Assembly (NCBI GenBank): GCA_949472775.1
Contig: CASWVG010000002.1
Coordinates: 62,001-126,000, forward strand
DNA from: an uncultured Lachnospiraceae bacterium
GTDB lineage: Bacteria; Bacillota; Clostridia; Lachnospirales; Lachnospiraceae
Length of the DNA stretch: 64,000 bases
Direction: 5' to 3'
A program made the translations under genes and the position numbers. Under the pieces are notes generated by a model. It did not search any database. It worked only from the letters and a program-made list of their open reading frames with translations, and was not told where the DNA came from. Of the stretch, positions 6,386 to 61,265 are shown one piece after another (positions within the stretch are counted from its first letter, which is position 1; each line of letters starts with the position of its first letter).

Positions 6386-6500
6386 TCTCTTATTCAGAGT
6401 GGTGGAGATACATAGGATCGATGAAGCCACGGCAACCCCTGACAAGGAAGGTGCCAACCTGAGCGAAGCTGTTGTGACAGCATGATCGAACAATAAGAGG
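6386..6500 (+). ncRNA. SAM-I (S-box) riboswitch
   Basis: CTCTTATTCAGAGTGGTGGAGATACATAGGATCGATGAAGCCACGGCAACC...GGTGCCAACC...CAATAAGAGG matches the S-box core with closing P1; lies upstream of metK. Confidence 0.95.
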
Positions 6501-6555: not shown

Positions 6556-6661
6556 CGCGAATAAGCAGACTTACGGCGAGCAACGCGAACGAGAGATGTG
6601 CAGCATCTCGAGTCTCTGCCTATTTGCGTATATTACACAACACACAAAAAGGAGAGGAAAA

Positions 6662-7843
6662 ATGGAGAAAAGATTATTTACATCCGAATCTGTAACTGAG
6701 GGACATCCCGACAAAGTCTGCGACGCGATTTCCGACGCGATTCTGGACGCCTGCATGGAAAAAGATCCCATGAGCCGCGTGGCATGTGAGACGGCAGTCT
6801 GCACCGGGTTTGTACTGGTGACCGGTGAAATCACCACCAACGCATATGTGGATATGCAGAAAATTGTGCGTGATACCGTTCGGGAGATTGGATACACCAA
6901 GTCCGAGTACGGTTTTGACGCGAATACATGCGCGGTGTTTGTGGCGATCGACGAGCAGTCTGCAGATATCGCCATGGGAGTGGACAAGGCTCTCGAGGCG
7001 AAGAAGGGCGAGCAGACGGATGATCTGGACACGGGCGCAGGCGATCAGGGTATGATGTTCGGCTACGCTACCAACGAGACTGAGGAGTACATGCCTTATC
7101 CTATTGATCTGGCACATAAGCTTGCACTGCAGCTTACCAAGGTTCGTAAGGACGGCACGCTCAAATATTTAAGACCCGACGGCAAGAGCCAGGTTTCCGT
7201 GGAATACGACGAGGCGGGCAAGCCGGTACGCCTTGAGGCGGTTGTGTTATCTACCCAGCACGATGATGATGTGACGCAGGAGCAGATCCATGAGGATATC
7301 AAAAAGTATGTGTTTGATCCGGTTCTGCCGAAGGAGCTGGTGGACGACCAGACCAAATTCTTTATCAATCCTACGGGACGTTTCGTGATCGGTGGCCCTC
7401 ATGGCGATGCTGGACTGACAGGCCGTAAAATCATCGTTGATACCTACGGCGGCTATGCGCGTCATGGCGGCGGCGCATTCTCCGGCAAGGATTGCACGAA
7501 AGTAGACCGTTCCGCGGCTTATGCGGCGCGTTATGTGGCTAAGAATATCGTGGCGGCAGGCATTGCGGACAAGTGCGAGATCCAGCTCTCCTACGCGATC
7601 GGTGTTGCGCAGCCTACCTCCATTATGGTGGACACTTTCGGCACAGGCAAAATTGCGGATGACAAGCTGGTTGACATTGTGCGCGAGAACTTTGACTTAA
7701 GACCCGCAGGCATCATCAAGATGCTTGACCTCCGCCGGCCGATCTACAAACAGACCGCGGCTTACGGGCACTTTGGACGCAACGATCTGGATCTGCCCTG
7801 GGAGAAGCTTGACAAGGTGGATGCACTGAAGAAATATCTGTAA
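6662..7843 (+). CDS. metK: S-adenosylmethionine synthetase
   Basis: [66 protein letters not shown] 6662 preceded by AGGAGAGG. Confidence 0.97.
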
Positions 7844-9145: not shown

Positions 9146-10507
9146 ATGCAGAAACCGATGTCGTATAAGAAAATCATAATTTGTGCCGGTGCAGCGTTGG
9201 CGGTGATTGTTGCGGTGGCAGCTATATTTCTATTAAATAAGGAAGAAACATTCCGGTCCATCATGGTTTATGATGTGGAGGGAAGTGCCACGATTGAGCG
9301 GGAGAGTGTGGGAGCCATGAATGCGGCGGAAAACCTGTATCTGGAATCCGGCGACCGTGTCAGCGTAGCGGCCGAATCCAGTATGCGCATGAAACTGGAT
9401 GACGATAAATATGTGATGGCGGAGGCAGATACGATCTTTGCCGTGGAGGCGGAAGGGTCAGCGGCGGATTCCCGGACAAAAATATGTCTGGAACAGGGCG
9501 CGATTACCAATGAAATTCAGCATCCGCTGAGCGAAGGATCCCAGTATGAGACGTCCACACCAAATTCCGTAATGGCGGTCCGCGGGACGATCTACCGTGT
9601 GGAATTGTATATGGATGACAATGGAGACCAGAATACGAAACTATGCTGTTTTCAAGGAAAGGTCGGAGCAAAGCCTGTTCTGCCGGATGGTACATATGGG
9701 GAAGAAATACTGGTTCCGGCAGGAAGCGAGCTGACTGTATATCACGATGGAACAGTGGGAGAAGTAAAAGACATTGCATATAATGAGCTGCCCCGGCAGG
9801 CGGTTGCAAATCTGCTCAGCCTGATGGAGAGTGGCCAGGATGTGACAGGTATCTCCCGGGAGGATCTGGCGCAGATGAATCCAGGGACGGCGGATGCCGG
9901 CGGGACCCCGGAGAATGCAGCCGTGCAGGCGGAACAGGACGGGACAGCGGAAGCGGTTTCAGAGAGCGATGTGCTTATCCATGCAACGGCACATATGACA
10001 GGGAATGGTTCGGCAAACCCGGACGGAGAAACGTGGCATATCCCGATGCCTCAGCCGACAACAGAACAGCCGGCGCCGCAGGCTCCGGCGATCAAAATGC
10101 CAAAGACAACGGCCCCGGTGAACGGTGGCAGCATTGGCCAGGGTAATACGGGGGAAGAAGGTTCGCAGGACGAAAATGCCGGAACCGACTCGGATGACGA
10201 CAGACCAAAGAAAGATAAGCCCGATAAACCGGGTAAACCAAATAAACCCGATAAGCCGGATAAACCGGACGAACCGGATAAGCCCGACAAACCGGATCAG
10301 CCGGACGAACCGGATCAGCCGGATGAACCCTCGGAACCGGTGACTTACACGGTGACCTTTATGTATCAGGAGAAAGTGTTTGCAGTGCAGACCGTTGAAA
10401 GTGGGAAAAATGCCGCGGTACCTGTGCTTATTCCGGCAGAAAGCGGCGCGTGGAATTTTGACTTTGGAACCAGAATTGAGGCGGATACGACAATATCGTG
10501 GAAATAG
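9146..10507 (+). CDS. FecR-domain membrane-anchored protein with KPD/EPD/QPD linker and C-terminal beta-repeat-like domain
   Basis: N-terminal TM; FecR motif SQYETSTPNSVMAVRGTIYRVE; DKPDKPGKPNKPDKPDKPDEPD linker; C-term YTVTFMYQEKVFAVQTVESGKNAAVPV. Confidence 0.8.
   Translation: MQKPMSYKKIIICAGAALAVIVAVAAIFLLNKEETFRSIMVYDVEGSATIERESVGAMNAAENLYLESGDRVSVAAESSMRMKLDDDKYVMAEADTIFAVEAEGSAADSRTKICLEQGAITNEIQHPLSEGSQYETSTPNSVMAVRGTIYRVELYMDDNGDQNTKLCCFQGKVGAKPVLPDGTYGEEILVPAGSELTVYHDGTVGEVKDIAYNELPRQAVANLLSLMESGQDVTGISREDLAQMNPGTADAGGTPENAAVQAEQDGTAEAVSESDVLIHATAHMTGNGSANPDGETWHIPMPQPTTEQPAPQAPAIKMPKTTAPVNGGSIGQGNTGEEGSQDENAGTDSDDDRPKKDKPDKPGKPNKPDKPDKPDEPDKPDKPDQPDEPDQPDEPSEPVTYTVTFMYQEKVFAVQTVESGKNAAVPVLIPAESGAWNFDFGTRIEADTTISWK
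10213..10341 (+). repeat. In-frame ~9-bp tandem repeat encoding (K/E/Q)PD linker
   Basis: Repeated gataaacc(s)/gaaccggat/cagccggac units inside the FecR-protein CDS. Confidence 0.85.
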
Positions 10508-10520
10508 CGGGATTTAAGAG

Positions 10521-12353
10521 ATGGAATATCTGAGTAAACTGAAAACGGTGGCGGTTACTGCCGCCGTTATTCTGGTCTCTTTCGCTTTATTGTATTTTGG
10601 TACGGCGGGTTTTGCAGATATGGGAATATCTGACAGGCTGAACCAGCGGGAGAGTGTTACCAACAAGAAAATATATATTATAGGAATCGACGATAAGACC
10701 CTGGAGCAGTACGGACCCGTCAATACCTGGAGCAGGGAGGTTCCGGCGAAGCTGGTGTCCCTGCTAAACGATACGGACGGTGCGCGTCCTGCTGTGATCG
10801 GATTCGATGTGATCTACAGCGAAGAAGCCGACCGGGAAGGGGATGATACCTTTGCACGCGTCTGCGGGGAGGCGGGCAATGTTGTAGCAGCCATGAGCTT
10901 TTCGTTTAAGGAACGTCCAGAGCAGGGGGCGGACGGCAGGATCGTCTATAATCCCTATCACGTGGATTATGTGATCGAGCCTTATGACAGATTGAAAAAC
11001 GAAGTCATCTGCGGTTTTGCCAACACATTTGTGGATTCGGATGGCTATGTCAGACAGGCCATGGCGTATCTTGATTATGAGGGGAAAAGGGCATACAGTC
11101 TCTCCGCGCAGGTCTATAAATCCTATCGGGAAAGCCGCGGAGAAGAAGCGGTATTTCCGGCTGTTTATGGGAGAAACAATCGGTTTTATTTCACTTATTC
11201 CGGCAAGCCGGGCGGCTACAGTGTCGTCTCCATGGCGGATGTGCTGGACGGTACGGTGGATCCGGCGATTTTTCGGGATGCGGTTGTGCTGGTGGGCGCT
11301 TATGCCGTTGGCATGCAGGATGCCTATATGCCCGCAATAGCCCACAACAGCCAGATGTACGGAGTGGAGATCCATGCCAACATCATAGAAGCGCTGCTGG
11401 AAGGCAGGACACAGCTTCCGGTATCGCCCTTGCTCTATGCGCTGGCTGCGGCGCTTCTGTGCGGCGTATTTTATGTGTGCAGTGAAAAAATGCGGATGCT
11501 GTATTCCACGATTCTTCTTGCCGCACTGATCGTTCTTGACTTTGTCTTTGTAAAAGTGATGTATGGAAACGGATGGATTGTTCCGACGATCCTTCTGCCG
11601 GTCTGCCTGCTTGTCATCTGGCTGGTGCAGATGGTGCGCAGATACCTGGCGGAGATCATGCGCAGACGCAGGGTGATCAATGTCTTTAAGCAGTATGTGG
11701 CGCCCCAGGTGGTGGACAAGATCAGCAAAGACAGAGATTTTGAGCTGGTGATCGGCGGGGAGAACCGTCATATTGCGGTGCTGTTTGTGGACATCAGAGG
11801 ATTTACGACCATGTCGGAGAGCTTAAAGCCGGAGGAAGTGGTTGAAATTCTGAATGAGTATCTGGGGCTTACCACGCAGGCTATTTTTGATAACGGCGGT
11901 ACCCTCGACAAGTTCGTGGGGGACGCGACCATGGCGGTGTTCAACGCGCCTTTCGATCTGGACGACTATATTTTCCGCGCCGTCGCCACCGCATGGGATA
12001 TGCAGGCGGGAGCGGACAGGATCGCCGAGAAATTCCATGAAAGATACGGCAAGAGCGTATCCTTCGGAATCGGCGTTAACTGCGGCAATGCCGTTGTGGG
12101 AAATATTGGCTGCGATTTCCGGATGGACTATACGGCAATCGGAGATACTGTCAATACGGCGGCGAGACTGGAGAGCAATGCAAAACCAGGACAGATTCTG
12201 ATCAGTAAAGAAGTTTATGAGGCGGTAAAAGACAGAGTTTTGGTGACGCCGATCGGGGAGATCCCCCTGAAAGGAAAGAGCAACGGCGTATTTGTATATC
12301 AGGTAGACAGTGTGGGAAACGCGGAAAGTACTTCTAAAGCGCAGCAAAGCTGA
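10521..12353 (+). CDS. CHASE2-domain class III adenylate cyclase
   Basis: N-term TM, CHASE2-type extracellular region (IIGIDDKTLEQYGPVNTWSREVPAKLV...VIGFDVIYSE), three TMs, cyclase domain with FVDIRGFTTMSE, LDKFVGDATMAVF, MDYTAIGDTVNTAARLE; Lys and Asp at the adenine-selective positions. Confidence 0.93.
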   Translation: MEYLSKLKTVAVTAAVILVSFALLYFGTAGFADMGISDRLNQRESVTNKKIYIIGIDDKTLEQYGPVNTWSREVPAKLVSLLNDTDGARPAVIGFDVIYSEEADREGDDTFARVCGEAGNVVAAMSFSFKERPEQGADGRIVYNPYHVDYVIEPYDRLKNEVICGFANTFVDSDGYVRQAMAYLDYEGKRAYSLSAQVYKSYRESRGEEAVFPAVYGRNNRFYFTYSGKPGGYSVVSMADVLDGTVDPAIFRDAVVLVGAYAVGMQDAYMPAIAHNSQMYGVEIHANIIEALLEGRTQLPVSPLLYALAAALLCGVFYVCSEKMRMLYSTILLAALIVLDFVFVKVMYGNGWIVPTILLPVCLLVIWLVQMVRRYLAEIMRRRRVINVFKQYVAPQVVDKISKDRDFELVIGGENRHIAVLFVDIRGFTTMSESLKPEEVVEILNEYLGLTTQAIFDNGGTLDKFVGDATMAVFNAPFDLDDYIFRAVATAWDMQAGADRIAEKFHERYGKSVSFGIGVNCGNAVVGNIGCDFRMDYTAIGDTVNTAARLESNAKPGQILISKEVYEAVKDRVLVTPIGEIPLKGKSNGVFVYQVDSVGNAESTSKAQQS

Positions 12354-12412
12354 CTGGAAAGTACGGAGTTTCGCGTAAGAGAATGACTGAAATACAGTAT
12401 TCTCCGCACAGC
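12319..12412 (+). repeat. Intercistronic two-hairpin palindromic element, copy F
   Basis: Outer stem ACGCG(g)AAA / TTTCGCGT; GTACTTC / GAAAGTAC; CAGCaaaGCTG; second hairpin GAGAAT(g)ACTG aaata CAGTATTCTC. Confidence 0.6.
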
Positions 12413-16714: not shown

Positions 16715-17644
16715 ATGTCTTACATTTTACAAACAAGCCGCCTTACCAAAACCATCGGCGGCAAAGAACTGGTAAGGGATGTGGATATCCACGTAAAAAA
16801 GGGAGAAATCTACGGGTTTCTGGGGCCCAACGGCGCAGGCAAGACGACCGTTATGAAAATGATTATGAACCTCTGGAAACCGACCATGGGTTCCATTGAG
16901 ATTTTCGGAAAGCCGCTCACGCCGCAGTCCTACGAGGTGATGAGGCGGATCGGCAGCATCATTGAATTTCCCACATTTAATGAGCACATGACGGGGTATG
17001 AAAATCTGCGTATGCACTGTGAGTATATGGGTTTTTACCAGCACGGCAGCGTGGAAACGGCTTTGGAAATGCTTGATCTGACGGCGGCGGCAAAAACCCC
17101 CGTCAAGAATTATTCCCTCGGTATGAAGGAGCGTCTGGGAATTGCGAGGGCAATTTTATGTAAACCAGAGCTGCTGATTCTCGACGAGCCTACCAACGGG
17201 CTTGACCCGGCAGGTATGAAACAGATCCGCGAACTGCTGCGGATGCTCAGCGCAGAGCAGGGGACGACGATTGTGGTGTCTTCCCACATTCTCTCGGAGA
17301 TCGAGAGCATGGCGGACACGATTGGTATCATACATCAAGGCAGGATGAAAAAGGAAATCGGTCTGAAAGAAATTGAGGAGATGAGTCTGGCATATATCGA
17401 ACTGGCGGTGGAGAACCCGGAGAGGGCGGCTTATGTGCTTGCCGATAAGCTTGGACTTGCCAATTTTAAGGTGATCGACGGCGGCGTGATCCGTATTTAT
17501 GACAATCGTGTCACAACTGAGCAGATTGTGAAGGCGTTTGCCTCAAATGAGGTGGCAGTTACTTCGCTTGGAAGAAAGGCGGAGACGTTGGAAGACTATT
17601 TTTTGAAACTGACCGGAGGGAGAACGGGAGAAGAAATTCTATGA
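16715..17644 (+). CDS. ABC transporter ATP-binding protein (BcrA/bacitracin-type)
   Basis: Walker A GPNGAGKTTVMK, signature YSLGMKERLGIARA, Walker B LLILDEPTNGLDP. Confidence 0.94.
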   Translation: MSYILQTSRLTKTIGGKELVRDVDIHVKKGEIYGFLGPNGAGKTTVMKMIMNLWKPTMGSIEIFGKPLTPQSYEVMRRIGSIIEFPTFNEHMTGYENLRMHCEYMGFYQHGSVETALEMLDLTAAAKTPVKNYSLGMKERLGIARAILCKPELLILDEPTNGLDPAGMKQIRELLRMLSAEQGTTIVVSSHILSEIESMADTIGIIHQGRMKKEIGLKEIEEMSLAYIELAVENPERAAYVLADKLGLANFKVIDGGVIRIYDNRVTTEQIVKAFASNEVAVTSLGRKAETLEDYFLKLTGGRTGEEIL

Positions 17645-17719
17645 TGCAGCGGCAAATCACTCTTGTGTAAAAGAAAGCCTGAAAACGGCATTCTCTGTAT
17701 GGATGTTAAGGAGGAAACT

Positions 17720-30117: not shown

Positions 30118-30170
30118 GAGTGGGAAGCGCTAAGTTTCACTCGGAAGAATGCCAAAAACGGCCATTCACC
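30118..30170 (+). repeat. Intercistronic two-hairpin element, copy D (shortened)
   Basis: GAGTG...CACTC then GAATGcc...GGCCATTC, tail CACCGCACTGG; begins 3 nt after stop. Confidence 0.5.
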
Positions 30171-30204
30171 GCACTGGTTGACTGGCTGGAGGGAAAGAAT
30201 AACG

Positions 30205-30284: not shown

Positions 30285-31277
30285 ATGGACTTGAAGGGAC
30301 GCAATTTTTTAAAGCTTCTGGATTTTACGCCGGAGGAAATCTCATACATGCTGGATGTGGCGGCGGATCTGAAGGACAAGAAAAAGAAGGGAATCCCCGT
30401 GGACACGCTGCGGGGAAAAAATGTGGCGCTGATCTTTGAAAAGACAAGCACAAGAACCCGCTGTGCCTTTGAGGTGGCGGCGCACGATCTTGGTATGGGA
30501 ACGACCTATCTTGACCCGTCAGGCTCCCAGATTGGCAGGAAAGAGAGCGTTGCCGACACGGCACGGGTGCTGGGACGCATGTTTGAGGGCATCGAGTACC
30601 GCGGGTACGGGCAGGAGATTGTGGAAGAGCTGGCAAAATACGCGGGTGTGCCGGTCTGGAACGGTCTGACCAATGAGTTTCACCCGACCCAGATGCTGGC
30701 GGATCTTCTGACCATACGGGAGCATTTCGGGCGCGTGAAGGGCATTAAGCTGACTTATATGGGCGATGCCCGCTATAACATGGGCAATTCCCTTATGGTG
30801 GCCTGCGCCAAGATGGGCATGCATTTCACGGCATGCACAAGTAAAAAGTATTTCCCGGAGGAAACGCTTGTGAAAACCTGCCGGGAGATTGCGGAAGAAA
30901 ACGGCGGTTCCATCCGTCTGACGGAAGATGTGCCGGAGGGCGTGACGGGAGCGGATGTGGTTTACACGGATGTGTGGGTGTCTATGGGCGAGCCGGCGCA
31001 GATCTGGGAGGAGAGACTGCGCGATCTTGCGCCTTATCAGGTCAACGCGCAGGCGATGGCTCTTGCCGGAAAAGACGCGGTGTTCATGCACTGTCTGCCC
31101 GCGTTCCACGATCACGAAACGGGAATCGGTAAGGAGATCGGTGAAAAGTACGGGATGGCGGAGCTGGAAGTGACAGACGAGGTGTTTGAGTCGGCGCAGT
31201 CCATTGTGTTCGATGAGGCGGAGAACAGAATGCACACCATCAAAGCGGTTATGGCAGTGACACTTGGGTTAGCGTGA
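30285..31277 (+). CDS. argF: Ornithine carbamoyltransferase
   Basis: [53 protein letters not shown]. Confidence 0.96.
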
Positions 31278-31354
31278 AAATTCTAAAGCTCAGCGGCAAT
31301 GGCTGCTTCGTGAAGTGTTTCACGCGGGAGAATGCCGAAAAACGGGCATTCTTC
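31272..31354 (+). repeat. Intercistronic two-hairpin element, copy E
   Basis: Outer stem GCGTGAAA/TTTCACGC including the argF stop codon; GGAGAATGCC/GGCATTCTTC second hairpin; shared CAGCGGCAATGGCTGCTTCGTGAAG core. Confidence 0.75.
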
Positions 31355-31403
31355 GGGACGTGCCTGCTTGTCCGCTGACTATGAGATTCCGCGGAGCGGA
31401 GTC

Positions 31404-32432
31404 ATGGGGGTAAGAGATAAATCCATGAAGACAGACAGATCCGATATTTTAACATGTCTGCGGAGCAGTGAGGACTATGTGTCGGGGCAGCAGCTCTGCG
31501 ACCGCCTTGGCGTTTCCCGCACGGCGGTCTGGAAGGTGATTAAACAGTTGAAAGAGGAAGGTTACCGGATCGAGTCGGTGCCAAGCCGCGGCTATCGGCT
31601 GGTGGAGAGCCCTGCGGACGCCTATTCGGAGAGTGAGATTGCCAGCAGGCTCCGCACGAAATGGGCAGGACAGCGGCTTATCTTTTTTGAGTCCACCGGT
31701 TCCACAAATCCCGATGCCAAACGCTTTGCGGAGGAAGGGGCGCCGCGGGGCACGACGGTGGTTGCAGACAGGCAGACCGCGGGCAGAGGGCGCAGAGGCA
31801 GATCATGGGAGTCGCCTGCGGGGCGGTCCATCTATTTTACGATTATTGTCCGCCCGGCGTTTATCCCGGATAAGGCATCTATGATCACGCTTGTTATGGC
31901 ACTTTCCGTGGCGGAGGCGATCCATGAAGTGACGGGACTTCCCACGGGCATCAAATGGCCGAATGACATTGTGGTGAACGGGAAAAAGGTGGTCGGGATT
32001 CTCACAGAGATGAGCATGACGCCGGAGATGAACGAGATTCAGTTTCTGGTAGCAGGTGTGGGTGTCAACGTGAATCAGGAGAGCGCGGAGGAATTCCCGG
32101 AGGAACTGCGGGGGGCGGCGACTTCCCTTAAAATAGAGTCCGGGCGGCATTTTGACCGGGCCGCTCTTCTGGCAGAGATTCTGGCGCGGTTTGAGCAGGA
32201 TTACGAGACGTTTGAGCGCACGCTGACGCTTTCCGAATTAAAGGAGCGCTATGAGTCGCGTCTGGCCGGCAGAAACGCCGTTGTGCGCATCCTGGATCCG
32301 GCTGGGGAGTACACCGGGATTTCGCGGGGGATTACCGAGACGGGAGAGCTGATTGTGGAGAAGGAGACAGGGGAGACCGTTCTTATATATGCCGGGGAAG
32401 TTTCGGTTCGCGGGCTGTACGGTTATGTCTGA
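31404..32432 (+). CDS. birA: Biotin--[acetyl-CoA-carboxylase] ligase / biotin operon repressor
   Basis: N-terminal HTH SGQQLCDRLGVSRTAVWKVIKQLKEEGYRIESVPSRGYRLVE; DRQTAGRGRRGRSWESPAGRSIYFTIIVRP; GIKWPNDIVVNGKKVVGILTEM. Confidence 0.95.
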   Translation: MGVRDKSMKTDRSDILTCLRSSEDYVSGQQLCDRLGVSRTAVWKVIKQLKEEGYRIESVPSRGYRLVESPADAYSESEIASRLRTKWAGQRLIFFESTGSTNPDAKRFAEEGAPRGTTVVADRQTAGRGRRGRSWESPAGRSIYFTIIVRPAFIPDKASMITLVMALSVAEAIHEVTGLPTGIKWPNDIVVNGKKVVGILTEMSMTPEMNEIQFLVAGVGVNVNQESAEEFPEELRGAATSLKIESGRHFDRAALLAEILARFEQDYETFERTLTLSELKERYESRLAGRNAVVRILDPAGEYTGISRGITETGELIVEKETGETVLIYAGEVSVRGLYGYV

Positions 32433-44298: not shown

Positions 44299-45180
44299 AT
44301 GCAAGTATCGGTTGATAAAAAAAGTGAGAGAAGAGCGGCATATCTCTTTATCATTCCTGCGGTCGTCCTGCTGGCGGCGTTTCTGCTCTACCCGGCGCTG
44401 CAGACTGTCAGATATGCTTTTACGGACTATAACATTATGCGTCCCGACAGGATCAAATTCTGCGGATTCAATAATTTCATCGAACTGTTTCAAGACAAAG
44501 ATTTCTGGATTGCGGTGAAGAATACCCTGCATTTCACCATTTTGGTTGTGCCTTTCCAGACGGTACTGGCACTGGCGCTTGCGCTTCTGATTTCCTCCAG
44601 GAGGAAAGGCGTCTCCATCTTCCGCGCGGCCTACTTCAGCCCGCAGGTGACGTCGATGGTTGTTGTGGCGATCCTCTGGACGGTTTTGTACAACTCCAAT
44701 CCAAACAGCGGCCTGTTGAATGCCCTTCTGGTAAATCTCGGAATGGAGCCGTGCGGTTTCCTGAATGATCCGAAAAGCGCCATGAATTCCATTGTCTTCA
44801 TGTCGGCATGGCAGGGGGCGGGTTACCAGATGATGATCTTCCTCGCGGGCCTGCAGGGCATCCCGAAGGATCAGTATGAGGCGGCCTCTATCGACGGCGC
44901 AGGAAAGATCAAGAGCTTCCTCTATGTGACGCTGCCGGGACTGAAGAACGTGATCTCCTATGTCATTATGATAACGGTTATTCAGGCGATGAAGCTTTTT
45001 ACACAGCCCTATGTGATGACTAAGGGTGGTCCCCAGAATGCCACCAGGACCCTCGTGTACTATGTGTATGAGCAGGGCTTCCAGAAGAGGAATTTCGGCT
45101 ATGCCTGCGCGGTGGCGGCGGTGTTCTTCGTCATAGTGATTTCCCTGTCAGTGGGAATGAAAAAAATAATTAAGGCGTAA
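44299..45180 (+). CDS. ABC sugar transporter permease (MalF-type)
   Basis: YLFIIPAVVLLAAFLLYPALQTVRYAFTDYN; EAASIDGAGKIKSFLYVTLPGLKNVI (EAA motif). Confidence 0.94.
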   Translation: MQVSVDKKSERRAAYLFIIPAVVLLAAFLLYPALQTVRYAFTDYNIMRPDRIKFCGFNNFIELFQDKDFWIAVKNTLHFTILVVPFQTVLALALALLISSRRKGVSIFRAAYFSPQVTSMVVVAILWTVLYNSNPNSGLLNALLVNLGMEPCGFLNDPKSAMNSIVFMSAWQGAGYQMMIFLAGLQGIPKDQYEAASIDGAGKIKSFLYVTLPGLKNVISYVIMITVIQAMKLFTQPYVMTKGGPQNATRTLVYYVYEQGFQKRNFGYACAVAAVFFVIVISLSVGMKKIIKA

Positions 45181-45278
45181 TGTGAGAAGTACTTCTATTC
45201 ACTCGCAGCAAAGGCTGCTTCGCGAAGAAGTACTAAGTCTCACATAGGAGAATGCCCCAAAAGCGGCATTCTCCGTAC
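45181..45278 (+). repeat. Intercistronic two-hairpin element, copy A
   Basis: TGTGAGA AGTACTTC tattcactc GCAGCaaagGCTGC ttcgcga AGAAGTACTaag TCTCACA; then GGAGAATGCC ccaaaagc GGCATTCTCC; starts directly after stop codon. Confidence 0.85.
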
Positions 45279-45324
45279 GGGTTTGGGCATGTAGCCCTGG
45301 GAGAGGAAGGAAAGGAGCGTCATT

Positions 45325-47923: not shown

Positions 47924-48016
47924 GTGTGAGAAGTACTTCTGACCACTCACGGCGGAGGCTGTTTCGTGGAGAAATACGAAGTCTCACACAAGAGAATGCC
48001 TCAACGAGGCATTCTC
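47924..48016 (+). repeat. Intercistronic two-hairpin element, copy B
   Basis: Outer stem GTGTGAGA/TCTCACAC; second hairpin GAGAATGCCTC aac GAGGCATTCTC (11-bp perfect). Confidence 0.85.
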
Positions 48017-48099
48017 CATAAGAAGATTGACATGGAACGAGGCATTCTCCATAGAAGGTTGAGATGGAATGAGGCATTCTCCGTAGGAGGTTGACATGG
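48003..48099 (+). repeat. Three tandem 32-33 bp units, each with hairpin arm, SD-like purines and ATG
   Basis: aacGAGGCATTCTCcataagaagattgacATGg / aacGAGGCATTCTCcatagaaggttgagATGg / aatGAGGCATTCTCcgtaggaggttgacATGg. Confidence 0.9.
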
Positions 48100-57775: not shown

Positions 57776-58999
57776 GTGAAGCTGGCATATCGAAATCTGG
57801 TCAGACATTACAGAAAAAGTATACTTTCCGCCGCCATCGGCATTGTGACGATCACGCTTTTACTGCTCTACGCAGTCAATCTGGACAGTACGGAAAGACA
57901 GCTTGTTATGCTCCCGGAAGCGATGGAGGTGAGCGGCAGGGTCAGCAATCTGAACGGTTCACGGGAAGAAGGAATCAGCATTTCCGAGGAGCGCGTGGAT
58001 GGAATCGTCTCCTGCCCGGATGTGGAGAAAGCGGTCTTCTCGGCGCAGTTTATGACGGGATTCGGCGCGTTTACGCTGGAGGAATATAAGGGAAACCTCA
58101 ATTATTTTGCGACGGCGGTCAACGATATTGCGGGCGTTCCCGGTTTAAAAAGCGAGGAAATTTCCTATGGAGAAAAGTGGGATGAGAGCCTTTTCGCGGG
58201 CGGGGAGCCGCTGTGCATTCTGGACGCCCGGACAATGGTTCAACAGGGGGTGTCGCTCGGGGATGAGGTGACGATCACCCTCTATTACTATCAGTACGGG
58301 CAGGGAGGCATTGGGATCGGCAAGGTTACGCCTCTCGCAGAAGGCAGACCGTTCACGGTTGCGGGCGTGATGGATTATAAAGACTTTACCGGCAGTGTGA
58401 CGCCGCCTCAGATGCTGTTTCCCCTTGAGAGCGTGCGGCAGATTTTTCGGGAGGAAGGGATCGCGTTTACGGCGGATTCGGCAGCCTTCAAGGTAAAAGA
58501 CCCGTTCCGGCTGAATGAATGTAAAAGCTATATGAAGGAGCTGGGCTTTCTGCCCGTGGTCAGGGACGCTGATTTTTCTTATGCGGGAAACGCCCTCAGC
58601 ATGAAGGACGAGGAGTTTATCAACGCGGCGGAAAACCTGCGGGAGACGCTGACGTTCCTTACGGGGATGCTGCCCTTTGTGGTGGTGATTCTCCTGTTTG
58701 TGGGATATCTGTGCAGCTATCTGCTGATTCAGAGCAGAAAGGCGGAGTATGCCACCATGCGCTCGGTAGGAATGGGATGGGGACACTGCTTTGTTGTTCT
58801 GCTTTTGGAAAATTTGATGATCGAGGTGGCAGCCTGCGCGGCGGTCAGCCTGCCTGTGCTTTTGTCGGGCGCGGTGAGCGGCAGGGCGCTTCTGTTTTCG
58901 GACGCCATATTTCTTCTGGCATTTTTATGGGGAAGCGCGGCGGCATTGTGGACTTTCCATCGGCTGAACGTGATGGAGGTATTGCGCGCAGGTGAATAG
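57776..58999 (+). CDS. FtsX-like/MacB-type ABC permease
   Basis: N-terminal TM after KLAYRNLVRHYRKSILSAAIGIVTITLLLLYAVNL; three C-terminal TMs with AEYATMRSVGMGWG. Confidence 0.85.
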   Translation: MKLAYRNLVRHYRKSILSAAIGIVTITLLLLYAVNLDSTERQLVMLPEAMEVSGRVSNLNGSREEGISISEERVDGIVSCPDVEKAVFSAQFMTGFGAFTLEEYKGNLNYFATAVNDIAGVPGLKSEEISYGEKWDESLFAGGEPLCILDARTMVQQGVSLGDEVTITLYYYQYGQGGIGIGKVTPLAEGRPFTVAGVMDYKDFTGSVTPPQMLFPLESVRQIFREEGIAFTADSAAFKVKDPFRLNECKSYMKELGFLPVVRDADFSYAGNALSMKDEEFINAAENLRETLTFLTGMLPFVVVILLFVGYLCSYLLIQSRKAEYATMRSVGMGWGHCFVVLLLENLMIEVAACAAVSLPVLLSGAVSGRALLFSDAIFLLAFLWGSAAALWTFHRLNVMEVLRAGE

Positions 59000-59089
59000 T
59001 GTGAGAAGAGTTTCTAAAGACGTCCCGCCATAGGACGGGACGCCAAGAACCGTCTCACACAGGAGAATGCCAAAATACGGGCATTCTCC
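58999..59089 (+). repeat. Intercistronic two-hairpin element, copy C
   Basis: GTGTGAGA...CGTCCCGccataggaCGGGACG...TCTCACAC; GGAGAATGCC aaaatacg GGCATTCTCC; outer stem begins on last base of the stop codon. Confidence 0.85.
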
Positions 59090-59126
59090 GCACGAATTTG
59101 AGAGATAAAGGGAGGAGACAGGTATC

Positions 59127-61057: not shown

Positions 61058-61131
61058 GTGCGCTTAGCTCAGCTGGATAGAGCGTTTGGCTACGGACCAA
61101 AAGGTCGGGGGTTCGAATCCTCTAGCGCACG
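61058..61131 (+). tRNA. tRNA-Arg (anticodon ACG)
   Basis: GTGCGCT TA GCTCAGCTGGATAGAGC G TTTGGCTACGGACCAAA AGGTC GGGGGTTCGAATCCTCT AGCGCAC; full cloverleaf, loop CTACGGA. Confidence 0.96.
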
Positions 61132-61180: not shown

Positions 61181-61239
61181 ATATAATAGGAAATTGCGAT
61201 AGTGTAAAACATTCAAGGAGAATGCGAAGCATTCTCTGA

Positions 61240-61265
61240 ATCGAGCGTGCCGCGCTCGATTTTTT
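61240..61265 (+). terminator. Terminator hairpin
   Basis: ATCGAGCGtgccgCGCTCGATTTTTT, preceded by GAGAATGCgaaGCATTCTC. Confidence 0.7.

Follow-up and report, generated by a model that had tools for sequence, protein, structure and literature searches.

A palindrome-built, probably mobile repeat of Lachnospiraceae placed in sense orientation at stop codons

The window analyzed here, that is, the whole stretch of DNA under study (64 kb), contains 52 called genes, 51 of them on the + strand, and carries copies of a hairpin-forming element, among them copy B, flanked by an Hpt-like gene and a kinase-like gene, copy C, with an FtsX-like gene on either side, and copy E, which follows argF at the argF/birA site (Table 1). 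All six copies that had been listed from the sequence, A to F, were present in the window where they had been placed; a seventh, decayed copy was also found, so that the count of six in 64 kb fell one short. Compared with dinucleotide shuffles, the predicted folds of copies A, B, C and E were strong, and those of copies D and F, which are shortened or decayed, were weaker. Copy D has an internal deletion and retains its outer arms and second hairpin. Copies A to E had been stated to begin between the stop codon itself and 3 nt past it; two of these starts are corrected here. The first base of copy A is 45180, one position before the listed start, and is the last base of the upstream TAA stop codon, and copy E starts inside the reading frame, the argF stop codon TGA being formed by its bases 4 to 6. 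Copy F starts inside a reading frame as well, with the upstream ORF ending 35 nt within it. That the next gene is always co-directional, as had also been stated, is weak evidence in a window with this strand composition, and a genome-wide test was used instead.

Table 1. Positions of the copies and their parts in the window, with covariance-model scores and fold strength against dinucleotide shuffles.
Feature	Position	Strand	Score or basis	Fold z	Remarks
Copy A	45180..45280	+	113.2 bits, covariance model	-9.3	
Copy A, outer arms	45180-45187 and 45238-45245	+	sequence		
Copy A, second hairpin	45247-45274	+	sequence		
Copy B	47924..48023	+	96.7 bits	-6.1	after TAACA
Partial tandem repeats, ~32 nt each	48021..48093	+	repeat search		of the 3' arm of the copy B second hairpin
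Copy C	58999..59095	+	89.6 bits	-9.5	
Copy D	30118..30176	+	44.0 bits	-2.1	after TAACA
Copy E	31272..31360	+	79.5 bits	-5.5	
Copy E, third hairpin and right end	31383..31412	+	sequence; third-hairpin consensus		GAGATTCCGCGGAGCGGAGTCATGGGGGTA
Copy F	12319..12412	+	67.2 bits; gene call for upstream ORF end	-3.0	
Seventh copy, decayed	17624..17702	+	23.0 bits, E 0.001		overlaps 3' end of ORF ending 17644

The anatomy of the unit and its statistics were obtained from 114 copies extracted from the host genome, a 3.36-Mb draft in 119 contigs (84.6% complete). Units measure approximately 100-145 nt and comprise two or three hairpins. The 5' part is a long nested hairpin, with an outer stem of 8 bp (GYGTGAGA/TCTCACRC and variants) and an inner stem of 9 bp (AGTACTTCT/AGAAGTACT and variants) topped by one of two apical hairpins; the second hairpin, GGAGAATGCC/GGCATTCTCC with the core GAGAATGCC/GGCATTCTC, follows, and CGCACGG comes next. 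The two-hairpin element described originally was thus recovered as part of a longer unit, a minority of copies, E included, having an optional third hairpin, ATTTGAGATTCCGC..GCGGAATCATGGNGGTTA, 3' of the second. In such copies ATTTGAG is followed by ATTCCGC..GCGGAAT or TCACAGC..GCTGTGA, and the right end reads ATGGNGGTTAGNGTGA. Lengths above 104 nt were found in 35 of the 114 copies, some of them owing their length to one or two additional hairpins, for example GTCAGCAAAGCTGAC or TTTGCTTTGCAAA. The consensus sequences of the left (RYGYGARAAG) and right (ATGGNGGTTA) ends are not complementary, and no terminal inverted repeats were found in them; the right end of a unit resembles the left end of a next unit, which fits the existence of tandem arrays.

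Two further hairpin arrangements were observed. A second 5' arm, GTGTGGGAA, stands before copy F, and doubled 5' arms occur also at C18:20137 and C70:5038 of the host (e.g. GCGTGAGAA^ACGCGAAAAG, the caret marking the junction), an appearance that insertion of one unit into the left end of another, or recombination at that end, would give. At 61203-61243 (+) of the window, 3' of a tRNA (61058-61131), a short hairpin, GGAGAATGCGAAGCATTCTC, is like the second-hairpin core, but it scores 9.4 bits (E 2.4) and may be unrelated.

The host genome contains 46 perfect cores, GAGAATGCC-N(3-10)-GGCATTCTC, and no instance of the reversed pattern. When the same genome was searched with a covariance model derived from copies A to F, further copies came to light, the total being at least 119 at E<0.01 and at least 134 places at E<=1; these are lower bounds, 150 of 582 candidates having been scored by the model, and the E-values of this home-built model are rough. 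Contig ends and short tandem arrays (C18, with a 145-nt period, C25, C17 and C69) harbor several of the host copies, and those at the ends of draft contigs blur the annotation of gene ends. Within the genus, 19 of 25 genomes contained the element, with 0 to more than 90 copies per species. A sample of 150 genomes from 149 genera of the family, searched with strict filters at E<=1e-8, had it in 5 genomes and 4 genera; 16 genomes from other families of the order had none. Named records with a perfect second hairpin belonged nearly all to Lachnospiraceae, including Parablautia intestinalis, P. muri and isolate 1xD42-87, and the single Cohnella record is likely due to chance.

The outer stem had been proposed to covary, and a structure-free alignment of 53 distinct copies bore this out: the pairs of columns with the highest mutual information fell on the outer, inner and apical stems, with combinations such as 27 GC and 20 AT at columns 7/61, TA, CG and AT at columns 2/66, and AT and TA at columns 11/54. 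Watson-Crick cells numbered 1458, against a mean of 1222 and a maximum of 1253 in shuffles, which ignore the relatedness of copies; shared descent by itself would hardly account for the independent combinations of changes seen in the outer stem. Among 90 copies from other genomes, a set partly chosen by a perfect second hairpin, 97% of the stem cells were Watson-Crick.

Copies kept for an RNA fold should tolerate G.U in their stems over A.C. Host stems contained 86 G.U and 102 A.C mismatches, 17 of the latter belonging to a single pair of columns in the second apical type, and the stems of relatives, a sample partly selected by a perfect second hairpin, contained 23 and 47, respectively. That G.U is not commoner than A.C speaks against selection on the sense-strand RNA fold, and argues that pairing is kept in the pool of source elements while single copies decay regardless of strand. 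The lack of a G.U excess together with the scarcity of intermediates suggests upkeep at the DNA level, which would proceed through recognition of folded arms or arm-to-arm copying. Covariation in a repeat, however striking, does not in itself testify to a functional RNA, and the count of G.U versus A.C mismatches provides a simple discriminator.

According to a home-made gene caller, the upstream gene was in sense with the element for 98 of 103 copies. A caller-free test, limited to copies with clearly coding sequence upstream, gave sense ratios of 74:0 (host) and 76:0 (other genomes), or 150:0 when these 150 copies are pooled, compared to 942:922 at random positions; copies with unclear upstream sequence, 35 from the host and 62 from other genomes, were set aside. 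Two main registers were found. The stop codon ended at +1 (TA^R, with the left edge of the element after the TA of TAA/TAG) in 22 host copies and 27 copies from other genomes, and at -2 (usually TAACA^) in 19 and 18, respectively; in smaller groups it ended at +6 and +19, these stop codons being supplied from inside the element. If the element simply brought its own TA into a random frame, the +1 and +6 groups would be of similar size, whereas the counts were 22 and 5 for the host and 27 and 6 for other genomes, which ties the junction to the stop codon. As the median co-directional spacer is approximately 100 nt, any single position would receive about 1.5% of uniform insertions. Neutral cargo alone does not explain the 150:0 sense placement, nor does this placement follow in any obvious way from a plain TA target or from selection against gene damage; with no antisense copy among the 150, replication direction is unlikely as the sole cause of the orientation bias. 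Such strict placement calls for a targeting mechanism that senses gene ends or for very strong selection.

Ten sites were compared between related species (not strains), and at eight of them a full copy was absent from the compared relatives, in which the genes were closed up or short scraps were left. Site B was empty in six relatives, with its flanks closed up, and at site C no copy was present in the relative G024, where the two FtsX-like genes overlap. The element was absent in all four relatives at C45:4477, 5' of a GroEL-like gene, and at C45:16555, and no full copy was found in relatives at C45:13228, C70:2697, C70:5038 and C70:10846, although some relatives retained scraps of approximately 10-25 nt that look like element ends. 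On the other hand, site E was occupied in G024, where the sequence is masked beyond the first arm, and in G015 and G021, and was empty in G017; its arms differ yet pair, the inner stem being AGAACTTCT/AGAAGTTCT in G015 and AGATGTTCT/AGAACATCT in G021. The copy at C70:8832 is common to the host and G024, in a decayed form. As shown by the shared sites and the scraps, part of this pattern is loss and not gain, and some of the absences may be losses; either way, the element comes and goes. Both junctions read TA at site B and C45:16555, and the empty allele fits a single TA. In this comparison between species, a TA duplication fits sites B, C, C45:16555 and C45:4477 and was not seen at C70:10846, and of 125 copies taken from other genomes, 77 have TA as the last two bases of their left flank.

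Some of the scraps share a breakpoint: those at C70:5038 (in G017 and G021) and at C45:13228 (in G015) start in the loop of the second hairpin, as TRAAA..GCATTCTCYGCA, and directly form the stop codon of the gene.

From the copy number, anatomy, covariation, sense orientation, stop-codon register and presence/absence between species, all of which were observed directly, we consider it probable that the element represents a new Lachnospiraceae family of mobile repeats that are small, non-autonomous and built of palindromes, of the BOX/ERIC/RUP/REP kind. Presence and absence between species imply mobile DNA, and the notion of a palindromic mobile repeat under structural constraint, one of those offered originally, agrees with the genome-wide copies, the congeneric presence/absence, the tandem copies and the decayed remnants. 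The element would spread as DNA, presumably by transposition in trans, with a trans-acting enzyme that would recognize the folded arms. The element would insert in sense at gene 3' ends, the commonest junction being that between bases two and three of TAA or TAG. Its left end would restore or supply the stop codon, and either the host ribosome-binding site or the GGAGG at its own right end would precede the next gene. With the stop restored and a ribosome-binding site kept, insertion would be nearly silent for the translation of a packed operon and probably near-neutral for the host; copies would later decay or be deleted.

A bolder proposal, which we regard as rather unlikely, is that the insertion machinery itself recognizes stop codons in the sense direction, for example on mRNA or on DNA exposed by coupled transcription-translation, as retro-insertion or a stop-codon-directed recombinase might do. 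If so, this would be a mobile repeat with a built-in safe harbor at translation stops, and the scarcity of G.U and A.C intermediates would point to the copying of one arm from the other and to a single-stranded stage.

The copies could instead serve the host as mRNA elements, whose hairpins after the stop codon would control processing, stability or translation, each copy helping its operon. Their constant sense orientation right at the stop codon and their strong folds with covarying stems are consistent with this, and there are precedents in effects reported for other repeats: E. coli REPs located at most 15 nt from a stop codon are reported to reduce translation of the upstream gene (PMC12306157), and ERIC, in one orientation, is reported to destabilize the upstream mRNA (PMC2229807). 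However, the stems have no preference for G.U, most sites differ between species, decayed copies are common, and the flanking genes examined share no theme. Nor was any terminator-like site found on copies A or B, the second hairpin being followed by CGCACGG and not by a T run, and an intrinsic terminator was rejected for these two copies. The structured functional mRNA element put forward originally is therefore unlikely, although a side effect of the repeat on mRNA is possible.

Within the reading as a mobile repeat, no autonomous partner or transposase tied to the element was found. A split-element search of 2.4 Mb for an autonomous, gene-carrying copy gave one pair (L076), which was not autonomous: a truncated copy lies upstream of an FtsX-like gene whose coding sequence contains a weak match. 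At L076 2647-2698 (-), a second-hairpin-like stretch plus ATTTGAGATTCCGC lies in frame inside the FtsX-like gene (18.8 bits), possibly an intragenic insertion or a chance match.

It appears improbable that the element belongs to the REP/REPIN type and is mobilized by a RAYT- or IS200-like Y1 (HUH) transposase that works on single-stranded hairpins. Palindromes kept by covariation would fit hairpin recognition, GTAG-REPs often supply the TAG stop codon of neighboring genes (PMC3733652), and the host genome has one Y1 gene, but Y1_Tnp was found in 9 of the 25 genus genomes without tracking copy number, and was missing from copy-rich genomes such as G002 (94% complete, 29 copies) and G012 (100% complete, 13 copies). 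No element adjoined the Y1 genes examined, and the Y1 proteins inspected were IS200-sized, with 144-151 aa. A Y1 transposase was rejected as the mobilizer given this lack of consistent co-occurrence. Compared to the GTAG-REP/RAYT system, the element shares high-copy palindromes whose edge can supply the TAG stop of the adjacent gene (PMC3733652), but REPs are single palindromes of 20-40 bp, their tag (GTAG or CGTC) has no fixed GTAG counterpart in the left flank of the element, which is mostly ..TA^R, and the element has no consistent Y1 partner.

Likewise unlikely is a classical MITE of an IS630/Tc1-mariner-type transposon, with TA target duplication and a transposase in the same genome, as for RUP: the TA flanks and junctions described above favor it, but no terminal inverted repeats were seen in the end consensus, 150:0 sense placement is not expected from a TA target, which is symmetric, and an IS630-type transposase was rejected as mobilizer because DDE_3 (PF13358) had no match in any of the 25 genus genomes; the host assembly is 84.6% complete.

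Compared with Rfam, the elements of the window had no match at gathering level, and five copies with their flanks had none at E<=0.5; a literature search on Lachnospiraceae with MITEs or stop-codon repeats found nothing relevant. Three outcomes had been named originally as refuting: two of them, a lack of further copies and a lack of covariation, did not occur, and the third, a match to a known family, applies by half, since no Rfam or named-family match was found while the kind, REP/MITE/BOX, is a known one. The element is like BOX, which occurs with RUP and SPRITE in Streptococcus pneumoniae, in being a high-copy, modular, hairpin-forming, intergenic and probably parasitic repeat, and in 36 cases the BOX copy provides the upstream gene with its stop codon (PMC3049150); the likeness is drawn from that description and not from an alignment of boxA-boxB-boxC modules. 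Sequence and host family differ, and the placement found here, 150:0 in sense with two main registers, is far stricter. ERIC/IRU of enterobacteria are similar in their length of approximately 127 bp, TA termini, intergenic location in operons and structured transcripts, but they have terminal inverted repeats (PMC2229807), none of which were seen in the element, and live in other hosts; the likeness is in kind only. RUP of S. pneumoniae, an IS630-type MITE, is comparable in length (approximately 107 bp), copy number (more than 100) and TA target (PMC2229807), and differs by the terminal inverted repeats missing from the element and by the IS630-type DDE_3 transposase missing from the genus sample. 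The element behaves as small parasitic repeats of the BOX type do, and membership of no named family was found. Sense orientation and stop-codon register are stricter than the literature consulted describes for REP or BOX. Most known small palindromic repeats come from enterobacteria, neisseriae and pneumococci, and no such family turned up in the literature searched for Lachnospiraceae, a dominant group of the gut.

Two other features were observed in the window. A SAM riboswitch (RF00162, 68.8 bits) lies at 6387-6499 (+), 5' of the ORF at 6596-7843, and at 10205-10330 (+) a 9-nt repeat occurs 11 times within the ORF at 9146-10507, as GATAAACCG units that encode a stretch rich in Pro, Lys and Asp.
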